Part shown: one piece after another, positions 1-35,451 of the stretch
Position numbering within the stretch: the first letter of the stretch is position 1
Layout: the number at the start of each line of letters is the position of its first letter
From: Elainella sp. Prado103
Lineage (GTDB): Bacteria; Cyanobacteriota; Cyanobacteriia; Elainellales; Elainellaceae
Reading direction: 5' to 3'
DNA: 37,295 bases
NCBI GenBank assembly: GCA_025454395.1
Contig: JALOOM010000084.1
Location: 1 to 37,295, forward strand
Position numbers and translations under genes: made by a program
The notes under the pieces: model-generated
What the model was told of the DNA's origin: nothing
What the model saw: the letters and a program-made list of their open reading frames with translations, nothing else
Databases searched by the model: none

Positions 1-262
1 GAATAGAACAGAGAAGGGTTTCAAGCGCATCGGTCAGTTCCAAAATTCAGTGTTTCACTGGTACTGACCAAGCTCCAAACAAAGCAATGTGGGGACTACA
101 GAGGATCAAGATAAAGTTTTCGAAAGGCATAACGAGTACCACCGCTTGCCATCTTGGATCCGGGAACGGGTCAACTCGTCTCCTGGATTGAGATGTTGCA
201 GGAGCTTCGATCAGGCTTGGTATCTCTAGCTTAGTTTGGTAGCAAACAATGTCACTCACACA
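1..262 (-). pseudogene. Degraded copy of the HTH gene pair at 21,955-22,637
   Basis: Bases 1-26 match 22,393-22,418, and 124-165 match 22,419-22,460. Bases 168-260 match the upstream part of the intact copy (about 22,548-22,640). Relative to that copy it carries a 97-bp insertion (27-123) and has lost about 75 bp in the middle of the first reading frame. The surviving minus-strand frame still begins MSDIVCYQT, compared with MRDIVCRQT in the intact gene, but then runs into unrelated sequence. The inserted stretch contains an 11-bp inverted repeat (32-42 and 59-69, one mismatch). It reads as a dead paralogue in the same orientation as the intact copy, so the two copies bracket the gene block between them. 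Confidence 0.8.
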
Positions 263-281
263 CTGCGAAACTTATCAATTA

Positions 282-356
282 TTTTCCTCCACCTAATTTC
301 GCTGGTCATTACCTCTTTTTAGAGAAGGAAGACAAAAAATTTCCTTCACCTAATTT
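282..356. repeat. Imperfect 18-bp direct repeat upstream of the response-regulator operon
   Basis: TTTTCCTCCACCTAATTT at 282-299 and ATTTCCTTCACCTAATTT at 339-356 match at 16 of 18 positions, with starts 57 bp apart. They sit just upstream of the CTTAT array at 361. Their function is unknown; a regulator site or a duplication scar are both possible. Confidence 0.6.
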
Positions 357-21917: not shown

Positions 21918-21954
21918 TCCATCCGGAGCTGAATCTCTGCTTCTCTCAGCTGCA

Positions 21955-22425
21955 TCAGGCGGACTCACCGATCAGTTTGCGGCTCCGCTTCCAGGCGGCA
22001 ATCACTCTGCGACTACAGCCGGTGCCGGTATGCTTCTCGACATAGTCGATTAAAGCGGGATAGGTGGTGTAGCCGATCGAATAAGCTTCATCCAGCAAGG
22101 CAAACACCGTTTGGTTCCGATCCGCTGGCACAGTCTTCAGTCGGGGAATTGGTTCAGAACCAGCAGCCGGAGACTCTTCTCCCCAATCAGGTAAGCGATC
22201 AGTGACGGCTTCATTCACTGGCAGAACTTCGACTTCGTTGGGAGAGAGGTCAACCGTCCGAGGTGGGGCTGCTGCTGCCGCTGGTATGGGTGGCATCGGG
22301 GGGACGGGTACGAGTTGTTTGCGTTGCTGCACTCGCGGATGAACCGGGTAGAAAATGCTGTAAATGACGTTCCAGCCCAATTGGGCGATCGAGAATAGAA
22401 CAGAGAAGGGTTTCAAGCAAGGCAT
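21955..22425 (-). CDS. Unknown protein: membrane segment, Pro/Ala linker, HTH-like C-terminus
   Basis: 156 residues if started at the ATG at 22,425; a GTG 12 nt earlier is also possible. It opens with a hydrophobic segment (FSVLFSIAQLGWNVIYSIFYP), continues through a Pro/Ala-rich linker and an acidic stretch, and ends with a helical domain (VFALLDEAYSIGYTTYPALIDYVEK, then RRVIAAWKRSRKLI) that could bind nucleic acid. The start codon lies inside the end of the upstream HTH gene (13-bp overlap), so the two are translationally coupled. No family recognised. The 5' part of this gene is also present at bases 1-26. Confidence 0.6.
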   Translation of the reverse strand: MPCLKPFSVLFSIAQLGWNVIYSIFYPVHPRVQQRKQLVPVPPMPPIPAAAAAPPRTVDLSPNEVEVLPVNEAVTDRLPDWGEESPAAGSEPIPRLKTVPADRNQTVFALLDEAYSIGYTTYPALIDYVEKHTGTGCSRRVIAAWKRSRKLIGESA

Positions 22426-22637
22426 AACGAGTACCACCGCTTGCCATCTTGGATCCGGGAGCGAAGCTTCCCTTCTAAACAGAGGTTTCGGGTTTGACGA
22501 CGAACCTGCTCATAGGTCAAGCCTGCTCGCTGGGTCAGATGTTCTCGGTTCAACTCTTCTCCTGGATTGAGATGTTGCAGGAGTTTCGATCGAGTTTGGT
22601 GTCCTTGCCGGGTCTGGCGACAAACAATATCACGCAT
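22413..22637 (-). CDS. Small helix-turn-helix protein
   Basis: 74 residues, basic. The segment ELNREHLTQRAGLTYEQVRR is a good helix-turn-helix candidate, followed by a wing-like RSRIQDGKRWYSL. It is coupled to the gene at 21,955 by overlap. A degraded second copy stands at the left end of the window, about 22 kb away, in the same orientation. Because it lies at the border of the island it may be an old chromosomal gene interrupted or duplicated by the insertion, or part of the mobile unit. Confidence 0.6.
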   Translation of the reverse strand: MRDIVCRQTRQGHQTRSKLLQHLNPGEELNREHLTQRAGLTYEQVRRQTRNLCLEGKLRSRIQDGKRWYSLCLA

Positions 22638-22741
22638 GTGTCATGAAATTTGTCAAACATTTCTCAGCATTCCCTTGTGCATACTGTAGAAGTGCCGAAA
22701 TAGAGAAAAATCTATAGTTAGAACCAGAAAATGAGGAGAAA

Positions 22742-22828
22742 ATGCGGTTCTCTTATGAAGATTTGATAAGAAAGGATCGGTTTAATTTTGGTCACAATTC
22801 TGGTTACAGCCTAAAAATTTATCGCTAA
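22742..22828 (+). CDS. Possible 28-residue peptide
   Basis: MRFSYEDLIRKD to SLKIYR, preceded by GAGGAG at 22,733-22,738, only 3 nt before the ATG. It lies between the HTH gene and the tRNA-Cys fragment. It could be the truncated head of a lost gene. There is no homology I can name. Confidence 0.2.
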   Translation: MRFSYEDLIRKDRFNFGHNSGYSLKIYR

Positions 22829-22863
22829 AAATTGCTTATCAGCAAGGGTTTCAGATCGTAGAA

Positions 22864-22910
22864 GAGGTCTGCAAAACCTCCACTCCCCAGTTCGAATCTG
22901 GGTGCCGCCT
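22864..22910 (+). pseudogene. 3' half of tRNA-Cys(GCA), probable integration scar
   Basis: The segment contains a complete anticodon arm (AGGT-CTGCAAA-ACCT, anticodon GCA), the T arm (CCCAG-TTCGAAT-CTGGG) and the 3' acceptor strand TGCCGCC followed by T, the discriminator expected for tRNA-Cys. Nothing upstream can supply a 5' acceptor strand (GGCGGCA) or D arm. A lone 3' half is what a tRNA-targeting integrase leaves as an attachment-site duplicate. The 230 bp that follow (22,911-23,141) show nothing else I can identify. Confidence 0.85.
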
Positions 22911-23141
22911 TCTCCTGTACGTTTGCATGATAAATGGTTAATGTCGCAAAATTATCACAGCACATTTCTTTCTGCGGAACCCGAACAAAGTCTTTACAGG
23001 TTTATCCGGTAAGGCTTTCAAAAGTGAACTTGATCAAACTAAAGCTATCTACTTTACAAAATAAAATGCGCTCAAGCGGTAGATCTAAGCGCTGGGTAGC
23101 TATAAATTGTAATAGATCAAACTTAATCTGCCAGAAGGGAA

Positions 23142-23384
23142 CTAATGGACACTGACAAAAGGTGTCAGACATGTCTTATTTGTTGCTCCCTGTTCTACGT
23201 GTTGAGCTTCTGTCTTCTCTTCCTCTTGCATCGTATCCTCAAATTGCCTTCCCAACATCTTCTGTTGCACAATCACTTTGCTGGCTAGAAAGGTCTGCAT
23301 CGGAGTCTTGCCGTAGCAGAAACGCCCTGAGTGCGGTCGAGTGCAGTTGTAGGAGTCTATCCAATCATCGACATCCTGCTGCAT
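23142..23384 (-). mobile_element. Transposase C-terminal fragment (IS481/IS3-like) with IS end
   Basis: The minus frame reads DDWIDSYNCTRPHSGRFCYG, then KTPMQTFLAS, which is the C-terminal end of DDE integrase-type transposases that carry the RPHxGxxCxGKTPMQTF pattern. The catalytic DDE core is absent, because an in-frame stop lies just upstream of this fragment. After the stop codon a GACACTGACAAAAGGTGTCAG stretch with a TGTCAG motif looks like an element terminus. It is a dead remnant. Confidence 0.7.
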
Positions 23385-23561
23385 TGACTAAAAAAGACTA
23401 CCGATCGATCCCAACGATCGATTACGGTGGTAATCGAAAGCGATCGTTCTGTCTCGAAGCTGCACCTTAACTGGTGGTACAAATGCTAAAAATATGCAAA
23501 GCAATGCCAAGTGCTTTTTTAGGGTTGGCTCTACAACTCAGTCATAGAGCCTGGAACCCAA

Positions 23562-23635
23562 TCGGAGCGGCGGGATTTGAACCCACGACCCCTACTACCC
23601 CAAAGTAGTGCGCTACCAAGCTGCGCTACGCCCCG
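23562..23635 (-). tRNA. tRNA-Pro(GGG)
   Basis: 74 nt, full cloverleaf on the minus strand. The acceptor is CGGGGCG with CGCTCCG, the D arm contains GCGCAGCTTGGTAGCGC, the anticodon stem CTACT/AGTAG encloses TTGGGGT (anticodon GGG), and the T arm is GTGGG-TTCAAAT-CCCGC. CCA is not encoded; the discriminator is A. It appears intact. Confidence 0.95.
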
Positions 23636-23722
23636 ACGCACTATAAAATTAGTGCTTAACCAGAATAGCATATCCAATTAGCAAATGAGAAGCCCAAAAT
23701 TCAAAAACTTGCCGAGAAGGTT

Positions 23723-32979: not shown

Positions 32980-35451
32980 TTACACTCGATCAGATGATTT
33001 GGTTGACGCTAAATTTAATAGTTCTTTGACTTTCTCGGCTTCAGCCGTCATACCTAGCTGCACAAAAATTTGAATTGCCTCGCTAGCATGTTGCTGCCTC
33101 GCTTTCAAGTTATTTTGGGCATCTGCCAGCTTCGCTAATGATTCTTGAATAAACGCCATCCGCAAATGATCTTGATTGGCTTTTGCTACCAGCAAACCCT
33201 GATCTAAAAGTTGCTTAGCCCGCTTAAAATCTTTTTGATGCATTGCTACTTCAGCCAATGAGTTCTCGATCACCCGCAGAACGCGATCCTGCCCGATCGC
33301 ACGCGCATATTCCCAAGCTGCTTCAAAGTAGGGCTGAGCCGCTGCAACATCGCCAGCATTAAAATAGGCAACCCCTTGGTAGTAGCGAATATGACTCAAG
33401 CATTCTTGGCGCTTATAGTCGTCTACATTAGCCTGCTGCAAAATGGTTTCGGATTGTTCCAGCCATTCCCTGGCTTTCACAAATTCATTCTGACGAATAT
33501 TCACATAACCAATCTGACGAGCTAGATTGGATTGATCTTTTAGATCGGGCTGATATTCGCGCAATTCCCAGGATCTGGACAGCAGTTCGCTGGCATCCTG
33601 CAAAGACTTTTCATCGCCGATCGTAGTCAGCCGCCAAGCTCGAAAACTCAGTAGTTCACCAGCCGTTTGCCAATCTGCTCGCTGCAAGGCAGTTTGAATT
33701 AACCACTCTGTCCAGGCTAAGCCTGTTTTCCAGTATTGCACCCGGTTGGTTTTGCGGCCGACGCTGTAGAAGCAAGATTTGAGATTTTGCCAGATCTTTA
33801 GCATCGGCTCATAACATGCTTCTGCCATACACCAGTTAGCAACAGCATGTAGATTTTCCCATTCAGCATCCAATTCACCAAATTCTCCCTGCCAGACCGA
33901 CGGGTCTTGATGATGGTAGTTGAAAGAAAAATCTACATACCAATTAATCCAACGCTCATAAACAACTCGCCTAAATTCAAATTGATTATTCAGCTCTGAT
34001 ATAATATACGCTCTCGTGGGTGCAATAATTTTGTAGCGACTGGAATGTTTCTCAGCATTATATTCTTGGCTGATCAACGATAATCTTTGTAGTTCTACGA
34101 TCGATTCCTCGGCTGTTTCCAGATCGACTTCTGGAATTGCAATCGCAATCAACGCTTGACGCAGAGCAGGCTCAGGAAACAGAGCCGTTGCTAACAGCAG
34201 CCAATAAGACGATCGATTGCGCAAAGTCTGAACTGAACTGGCAAAGCAAAATTGTGCTAGATTGCCAACGGGCTGCAGGAGCCGATGACGGATCACCTGC
34301 ATCGAATACCCTTGCGAGAGTTGACCGATCGCCAAATCGATCGCAATGGGTAATCCTCCTGTCAGTTGATAGAGGGCTTTACTCTCTTCCACACTAAGGC
34401 GAACCCCCATCTCGCCAGCCTGGTATTCCACAAGCTTGAGCCCTTCCGGTTCAGACATGGCAGTCAGGCGAATAATGCAATTGCCCATGATGCCTTCTCG
34501 TGTAGTAATCACCGATTTAACCGACGAGGGCAAATCACACAGAAAATCATCGATCGTTTGTCTATTTTCGATCACCTCCAGGTTATCCAGAATTAAGAGG
34601 GTGCGATAGTTAGCCAGCACTTTATAAATCAGCGTTGTCTGCTCTGCTAGGGTAAGAGCTAGATCCCCTTGGTCTAATAAATGGTTACTATCTAACATTT
34701 CGATGATTTGTCGGATCAGATCTTTTTGGTGCAGATCCAGCCGATTGTGTAACCCGTTATAAGTGAGGAACTGATGTTTGGCCGTAGTGAAAATAATCAG
34801 ATCGAAGGTGGCCTCGGCTGGGGTGGCATCCGGAGCACAGCTTCTATGCAAACAGCGCCAAGCACAGGTGGTGGCTAGAGAGGTTTTGCCAACTCCGCCT
34901 AATCCAGCAATACAGATTAATGAGGCGGCATGTTTGGGAGAAAGCAGTTTTAAGAGTCGATCAACTTCTTCTCGCCGACCAATAAACTTGCTGCAAGGCT
35001 GTTTAGGTAAATTATGAAAAACTCGCTTAGGCGTGTTATGAGATCCACTACTTGAGGTATTTCCAGCATGAGTATGATGTGATTCCTGGAATGCTGTTTG
35101 AACAGAGCTAGACCAGCGAGATTCAGCAAAACTACGCTCAGCTTCTTGGTTGTCTTCAGCCTGTTGAGCTAACAGGTTCGCCTGGTAAATCTCTTCTAAA
35201 AAAAGTCTGACGTTTTTGGATCTCACTTCTTTGCCGAGCCGCTGCCAGAGCTTAGGGGCAATTTGTCGTTCGATCGTACCGCGTCTTAAGTGACCGGCTT
35301 GGGCCGTTTTGAGCGGCTCGCCTGCTAAAATATGCTTCAAAATGGCTTCTTCATGCCAATCCAGGGGTTTATCCGCTTTAGACAGAAGCAACTGGTTGGC
35401 AACGGCAATGAGCTGGTCGATAGTAACGGTTGCAGTGGCTTCGGCTTTCAT
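32980..35451 (-). CDS. STAND NTPase: vMAP-like N-terminal helical domain, NB-ARC-like core, TPR-like tail
   Basis: 823 residues. Residues 10-95 (ending LDWHEEAILKHILAGEPLK to FLEEIYQANLL) resemble the N-terminal HTH domain found on cyanobacterial STAND proteins associated with vWA-MoxR systems. A Ser/His-rich linker leads to the NTPase: Walker A GLGGVGKTS (183-191), Walker B LLILDNLEV with D289, the SVITTREG sensor, and a GLPIA motif near 368. A winged-helix region follows, and from about 540 to the end repeated helical pairs are TPR-like (ARQIGYVNIRQNEFVKAREWL, YYQGVAYFNAGDVAAAQPYF). Such proteins are signal-activated switches, some in phage defence. It has no obvious effector domain, so it may work through a partner. 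It is divergent from the sigma-like gene at 35,957. Confidence 0.88.
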   Translation of the reverse strand: MKAEATATVTIDQLIAVANQLLLSKADKPLDWHEEAILKHILAGEPLKTAQAGHLRRGTIERQIAPKLWQRLGKEVRSKNVRLFLEEIYQANLLAQQAEDNQEAERSFAESRWSSSVQTAFQESHHTHAGNTSSSGSHNTPKRVFHNLPKQPCSKFIGRREEVDRLLKLLSPKHAASLICIAGLGGVGKTSLATTCAWRCLHRSCAPDATPAEATFDLIIFTTAKHQFLTYNGLHNRLDLHQKDLIRQIIEMLDSNHLLDQGDLALTLAEQTTLIYKVLANYRTLLILDNLEVIENRQTIDDFLCDLPSSVKSVITTREGIMGNCIIRLTAMSEPEGLKLVEYQAGEMGVRLSVEESKALYQLTGGLPIAIDLAIGQLSQGYSMQVIRHRLLQPVGNLAQFCFASSVQTLRNRSSYWLLLATALFPEPALRQALIAIAIPEVDLETAEESIVELQRLSLISQEYNAEKHSSRYKIIAPTRAYIISELNNQFEFRRVVYERWINWYVDFSFNYHHQDPSVWQGEFGELDAEWENLHAVANWCMAEACYEPMLKIWQNLKSCFYSVGRKTNRVQYWKTGLAWTEWLIQTALQRADWQTAGELLSFRAWRLTTIGDEKSLQDASELLSRSWELREYQPDLKDQSNLARQIGYVNIRQNEFVKAREWLEQSETILQQANVDDYKRQECLSHIRYYQGVAYFNAGDVAAAQPYFEAAWEYARAIGQDRVLRVIENSLAEVAMHQKDFKRAKQLLDQGLLVAKANQDHLRMAFIQESLAKLADAQNNLKARQQHASEAIQIFVQLGMTAEAEKVKELLNLASTKSSDRV

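Follow-up and report, generated by a model that had tools for sequence, protein, structure and literature searches.

What left the 3′ half of a tRNA-Cys gene, separated from any 5′ half, on a contig of the cyanobacterium Elainella sp. Prado103? The source genome (G000) is a draft of 5.84 Mb in 157 contigs, and the whole of contig C78, 37,295 nucleotides long, was analysed and is referred to here as the window. An earlier note, made from the sequence alone, had placed the half at 22864-22910 and read it as a probable integrase attachment scar beside an intact HTH gene and a dead transposase.

An isolated tRNA-Cys half and its intact counterpart

BLAST comparison with the intact tRNA-Cys(GCA) of the same genome (C29:397-468, minus strand; stretch L003) corrected the position of the half by no more than 1 nt at either end. 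Nucleotides 25-72 of the intact gene are identical to window positions 22863-22910 on the plus strand (48/48), followed by one more matching T, and the half therefore comprises a perfect anticodon arm, T arm and 3′ acceptor strand, just as had been described. Upstream of nucleotide 25, agreement with the intact gene falls to 4 of 24 positions, and a search of the window that tolerated up to 3 mismatches gave no tRNA-Cys 5′ half. When G000 was searched with window positions 22840-22930, two places matched, namely the half and the C29 gene, and the E-values of the C29 match (2e-21 to 5e-24), which extends beyond the tRNA, exclude chance. The earlier note had looked for a complete tRNA-Cys elsewhere in the genome, which the C29 gene provides. 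Against its own reading it had set a split or permuted tRNA, for which the window holds no 5′ half, or the absence of another tRNA-Cys gene, which the intact C29 gene contradicts. The half itself gave no tRNA or Rfam call, as ARAGORN and Rfam (gathering score) reported only the tRNA-Pro in the window, and the fold of positions 22840-22915 was not better than that of shuffled sequences (z -0.72; 48 of 200 shuffles as good).

The neighbours of the half were also as the note had them. The HTH-like ORF lies at ∼225 bp (∼230 bp had been given) and was matched by no library, and the dead transposase corresponds to an ORF with weak PHROG matches. An ∼80-bp repeat, 89% identical between window 23385-23460 and L003 9562-9641, adjoins this transposase remnant. 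Absent from the earlier note was a 21-mer resembling a transposon end, which starts at 22916, 5 bases beyond the half. The features are collected in the table.

Table. Features of the window that bear on the origin of the tRNA-Cys half
Feature	Position	Strand	Basis
Second, degenerate copy of the HTH-TM junction	1..284	-	Direct repeat of ~22393-22662
First nine codons of the putative module's AAA ATPase gene; element ends here	21928..21955	-	Full gene in L124
TM gene, putative membrane protein, 160 aa, second gene of putative end module	21955..22437	-	84% identical in Elainella saxicola E1
HTH-like gene, 74 aa, first gene of putative end module	22413..22637	-	ORF, aligned with relatives
Possible integrase arm, AGCAAGGGTT	22841..22862	+	In common with arm of G029 half; weak
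Isolated 3′ part of tRNA-Cys(GCA), probable attR-type site	22863..22911	+	BLAST against intact tRNA-Cys; 5′ half absent
Transposon-end-like stub, TGTACGTTTGCATGATAAATG, 5 bases beyond half	22916..22936	+	21 nt identical to G007 end
Transposase remnant	23142..23384	-	Weak PHROG transposase matches, E 2e-4
tRNA-Pro(GGG), start of chromosomal block common to relatives (tRNA-Pro, DUF1818)	23561..23636	-	ARAGORN, Rfam, relatives

A gene pair beside displaced tRNA halves

The half is adjoined by the HTH-like gene and a gene for a putative membrane protein (TM). Pfam, PHROG and NCBIfam gave no match to either gene, the query for HTH being its first 68 codons. In Elainella saxicola E1, a member of the same genus (L124, same coordinates as G001:C239), HTH and TM are followed by an AAA ATPase (PF13401), a YdjM-like protein (PF04307) and more genes. 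The window keeps this gene order only as far as the ninth codon of the ATPase gene. L124 yielded no tRNA-Cys half.

Relatives of TM occurred in 20 of 291 genomes, G000 included. We searched 24 HTH-TM stretches, the window among them (333,587 bp; two overlap, and three gave no TM match in the detector script), for paired anticodon and T arms that lack a pairing 5′ acceptor strand. tRNA halves were detected in four of these stretches, which were the window (Cys), L166 (Thr, TGT), L168 (Pro, GGG) and L181 (Pro, TGG). The geometry was identical in all four, with the half upstream of TM on the opposite strand and its 5′ side facing the module. Three of the four, namely the window, L166 and L168, have an HTH-like ORF between the half and TM, and none was seen there in L181. 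As a control, 21 other stretches (404,706 bp) yielded two 'isolated' hits, which by eye resembled ordinary tRNAs with weak acceptor pairing. The detector found no half in the other 20 of the 24 HTH-TM stretches, which may mean that the association holds in some cases only, that the criteria of the detector are strict or that the stretches are too short. A T arm near the TM gene in G181 (L152) and another, in the other orientation, in L155 failed the strict detector. From this arrangement, the HTH-TM pair (21955-22637) is predicted to be the end module of a family of ICE-like elements.

An element with both ends was found on contig C11 of G264, where a half at ∼89.6 kb and an intact tRNA-Pro(GGG) at ∼47.3 kb lie 42 kb apart in the same orientation. 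ARAGORN reported this half as a tRNA-Pro of 71 nt, but the match fails in the 5′ part. Over 65 nt the half shares 94% identity with the intact tRNA-Pro, and the two show no difference between the anticodon arm and the 3′ end. A tyrosine integrase frame opens ∼120 bp behind the intact tRNA-Pro (PF00589 E 1.6e-17; PHROG 1 E 5.4e-42) and is followed by an excisionase-like gene (PHROG 66 E 1.3e-6), and a second PF00589 gene lies within the element (L185:8621-9226). The other end is made up of a lipoprotein-like gene, a coupling-protein-like ATPase (type IV secretion coupling-protein match, PF10412, E 2.1e-7), a YdjM-like gene (by eye), an AAA ATPase, TM, HTH and the half. This ATPase was the sole conjugation-type component seen, in G264 and in G228. 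Judged by its genes, the G264 element appears to be an ICE-like integrative element, and the half, HTH and TM of the window correspond to its attR end. In both, the HTH-TM module adjoins the displaced tRNA half with the same geometry, whereas the G264 element uses tRNA-Pro(GGG), spans ∼42 kb and carries an integrase and the PF10412 ATPase, and the window retains ∼1 kb.

This organisation is consistent with the Islander concept of tRNA-targeted genomic islands with tyrosine integrases, in the part of that account drawn on here (PMC4383910). A regenerated tRNA and a displaced fragment mark the ends of such islands, as seen together with an integrase in G264; in contrast, the window retains the displaced end only, with no linked integrase or other end. 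For tRNA-Cys itself, an excerpted description of Synechococcus elongatus PCC 7942 gives an island with a phage integrase-like gene 'flanked by two tRNA-Cys' (PMC3025956). Likened by that description, the two cases share tRNA-Cys as a cyanobacterial integration site; they differ in that eight genes follow the integrase-like gene in PCC 7942, whereas the window has two genes and no integrase.

The degenerate second copy of the HTH-TM junction stands in direct orientation to the first, so that recombination between module copies is possible. The two copies bracket a 22-kb block that holds two-component, sulfatase, FGE and MarC genes, and this block may be an insertion between them.

tRNA-Cys halves and integrases in cyanobacterial genomes

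A survey with window positions 22640-23560 as the query matched 104 of 117 genomes, the match being to tRNA-Cys in many and to the transposase remnant in some. Up to four candidates per genome were scored, second copies were followed up and genomes with a single match were partly inspected. The resulting count of isolated tRNA-Cys halves is a lower bound: at least nine, in at least eight of the 117 genomes with G000 included (G000, G012, G018, G029, G048, G055, G091 with two, and G112). A further 29-nt match was seen in G098. Identity with the genome's own tRNA-Cys starts at nucleotides 23-28 in seven of the nine halves and at nucleotide 17 in G012, while for the G018 half the start is nucleotide 45 by the script rule and about nucleotide 24 by direct alignment with the window. 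In eight of the nine, identity ends 1-2 nt beyond the gene; the G012 half shares ∼49 bp more. A core bounded by the anticodon arm and the 3′ end fits a tyrosine recombinase whose crossover lies in that arm. The possible integrase arm next to the window's half is weak, being a 10-mer common to two of nine arms that 79 of 2000 shuffles equalled.

The half in G029 (L045) adjoins an integrase (PHROG 1 E 1.8e-17; PF00589 E 1.2e-4, below the cut-off), and a possible excisionase-like ORF, recognised by eye, is also near. In G091 (L052), an open frame from 83 bp behind the half resembles the L045 integrase by eye and has no Pfam match. In G012 it is the intact tRNA-Cys that an integrase adjoins (PHROG 1 E 2e-14, without a Pfam match). 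A different contig carries the half, near ORFs that by eye resemble phage structural genes; two of these ORFs were tested against Pfam and gave no match. Pattern scanning of IMG/VR returned one contig, with an intact tRNA-Cys inside a tRNA cluster. Relatives of the L045 integrase were absent from IMG/VR by short patterns, and phage records gave no relatives of the L039 integrase. Decayed tRNA-Cys halves with base changes were observed at L046 13172 (G048) and L052 1866 (G091), which is evidence that such scars persist and erode.

In the source genome, a motif scan for tyrosine-integrase boxes, an insensitive method, found none in the window or the C29 piece. The same scan also missed the integrases that PHROG recognises in L039 and L045, and its silence in G000 therefore means little. 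The sole relative of the L045 integrase found in G000 is on another contig, C134 (L110 9743-11110); it adjoins a ferrochelatase-like gene (by eye) and is not near tRNA-Cys. Contig C29 breaks off 396 bp beyond the tRNA-Cys and has no join to the window in the draft assembly. It stops (C29:1-92, L003) inside the transposon end behind tRNA-Cys, in a gene tail resembling IS630 transposases; this 29-aa tail resembles plasmid-borne genes, some annotated as IS630 transposase, and had no PDB match.

Neighbouring genes gave no information on an empty site. By eye, ∼120 nt behind tRNA-Pro are common with G001, and no gene order behind tRNA-Pro is common to the window and G001. MarC relatives in nine genomes are merely 23-30% identical, and nagA is next to tRNA-Pro in G001 and on a separate contig in G000. 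No tRNA-Cys was found around tRNA-Pro/DUF1818 in the stretches of 12 relatives, and the right flank of the half is thus not demonstrably an old tRNA-Cys flank. Were it such a flank, at least one relative might be expected to show this neighbourhood; a rearrangement would explain why none does, as would an attP-type origin of the half. The reading of the half as an integrase attachment site, proposed in the earlier note, is well supported, mainly through relatives, by the halves in other cyanobacteria and by the G264 element with both ends.

A transposon-like end behind tRNA-Cys and a proposed order of insertions

The 21-mer behind the half is identical over its length to the end behind tRNA-Cys in G007, after which the sequences diverge. 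On C29, TGTACGTTCGCATGATTGATG begins two bases beyond the intact tRNA-Cys, and exact TGTACGTTYGCATGATNNATG occurs at two places in G000 only, each 2-5 bases behind a tRNA-Cys 3′ end. With one pattern, repeated sites numbered four at the C29 end, three each in G005 and G007, two in G021 and none in G026, and the same pattern found no inner repeated sites at the window end.

In relatives, cas12k was found near tRNA-Cys or its half (G001, G012, G014, G021 and G026); these loci were met while reading neighbourhoods, and the whole-genome search for cas12k covered G000-G004 only. Five of six cas12k stretches of relatives carry an anchor guide to tRNA-Cys. Each of the five guides consists of GGTAGGTTGAAAG and then 17 nt that match tRNA-Cys nucleotides 21-37 with 0 or 1 mismatch, and in tRNA-Cys this target is preceded by GGTA. 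The sixth stretch, G001:C54 (internal stop), had no such guide within the flank examined. As reported in the portions of the literature cited here, type V-K CASTs usually have an anchor spacer of 17 nt and a GTN PAM (PMC9938897, PMC11406308), their end lies 46-82 nt from the PAM with one exception (PMC9938897), they are known at diverse tRNA genes, and tRNA genes are common integration sites of phages, Tn7-like elements and ICEs (PMC11406308). The relatives agree with type V-K CASTs in cas12k, in the truncated repeat with a 17-nt anchor spacer, in the tRNA target with its GTN-type PAM, and in the ends with repeated sites behind tRNA-Cys. Counted from the sequences, the PAM-to-end distance of 54 nt on C29 and its 57-nt equivalent in the window fall within the 46-82 nt given in that literature. 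A full-text search of open journals for 'Cas12k' together with 'tRNA-Cys', in those spellings, returned no paper.

The source genome differs from these relatives. There was no match to cas12k in G000 (a draft, in which C29 breaks off within the region), the window retains no more than a 21-nt stub, and its half lacks the PAM and the guide-proximal bases. No anchor spacer matching tRNA-Cys was found in the window or C29:1-20000, and the Pfam models Mu-transpos_C and TniQ gave no match in G000, nor in the control genomes. With no cas12k found in G000, the CAST identity of the window and C29 ends is an inference; the stub is probably a remnant of a V-K CAST-type transposon. Compared with the 17-nt guide, the window's half has 3 mismatches and no GTN before it. 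Insertion guided to the present half is therefore unlikely, and the transposon probably arrived when the tRNA was still intact.

Other arrangements of halves and ends were seen among the relatives. On G012:C38 (L038 9886-10100), the tRNA-Cys half retains the PAM GGTA and the full 17-nt guide target, and CAST-like sequence with cas12k starts ∼49 bp behind the half, where the flank common with the intact locus ends; this is possibly a CAST homing to a phage-borne att site. In L060 (13100-13180) and L055 (9970-10040), nested TGTAC ends are stacked behind tRNA-Cys, as if older short stubs had been left between the tRNA and newer ends.

We consider it highly probable that the half is the attR-type site of a mostly lost ICE-like element and that the TGTACG stub is a likely V-K CAST-type remnant. 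The tyrosine recombinase of the element would cross over in the anticodon arm of tRNA-Cys, with the element bringing its own copy of the 3′ half of the gene. Integration would rebuild a whole tRNA at attL and leave the displaced half at attR beside the HTH-TM module, and nearly all of the element would since have been lost from the window, leaving the half, HTH, TM and the first nine codons of the gene that follows. In the simplest order that we infer, a CAST would have inserted behind the whole tRNA-Cys first, integration would then have placed the half and the CAST end at attR and rebuilt the tRNA, and a second insertion behind the rebuilt tRNA-Cys would have come last. If the rebuilt tRNA was targeted again, a better preserved end is expected behind the C29 tRNA-Cys. 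The C29 end is indeed better preserved, which agrees with the window end being the older.

Alternatively, the half could be attP-like, with the transposon homing behind the rebuilt tRNA-Cys and so inside the integrated element, excision carrying off half and transposon end together, and a later arrival beside tRNA-Pro, for example by recombination through the duplicated HTH-TM regions. This course of events would fit the direct repeat of the HTH-TM junction (window 1-284 and 22393-22662), the lack of tRNA-Cys near tRNA-Pro in the 12 relatives' stretches, and the G012 half with its PAM, full guide target and CAST-like sequence behind the common flank; it requires an extra step, and we regard it as unlikely. 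Loss of the PAM from the half is expected of attR and attP alike and does not separate them. It is also conceivable, if quite improbable, that a second whole tRNA-Cys with a CAST behind it lost its 5′ half by deletion, with no integrase involved. The transposon-like end at a homing-like 57 nt from the would-be PAM, inside the 46-82 nt range quoted above (PMC9938897), is what such a history would leave. Against it, integrase-associated halves begin within the same few nucleotides as this one, and in L166, L168 and L181 HTH-TM also adjoins halves of other tRNAs, behind which such an end is absent. That the half belongs to a split or permuted tRNA, or gives rise to another functional RNA, is barely credible: its anticodon and T arms are intact and could pair, but the window has no 5′ half, an intact tRNA-Cys exists, and neither the tRNA and Rfam calls nor the folding favours it.

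With the attR-type reading, an odd fragment becomes an interpretable scar, and a family of ICE-like elements becomes recognisable by an end module beside displaced halves of various tRNAs. tRNA-Cys serves both integrases and, in relatives, RNA-guided V-K CASTs. More tentatively, and with some doubt on our part, tRNA-Cys may be a shared landing site at which tyrosine-integrase elements and V-K CASTs interact mechanically. If so, each integration would rebuild the tRNA and thereby restore the PAM and protospacer of the CAST at attL, a homing CAST would land inside the element, and earlier CASTs would be pushed to the attR side, attached to the half tRNA. A half tRNA with a CAST end would in that case document alternating events in readable form, and RNA-guided transposons would have a route onto and off other mobile elements. 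Which half retains the PAM of the guide may reveal the order of insertions, and with this it can be tested concretely in what way tRNA sites are shared between, or contested by, CASTs and integrative elements.

Elsewhere in the window, positions 32980-35451 encode an NB-ARC/TPR protein of 823 aa, a STAND-type signalling protein, and at ∼505-545 ATAAGTAAGGCAGAAATG occurs twice in tandem on the minus strand, directly upstream of a response-regulator gene.
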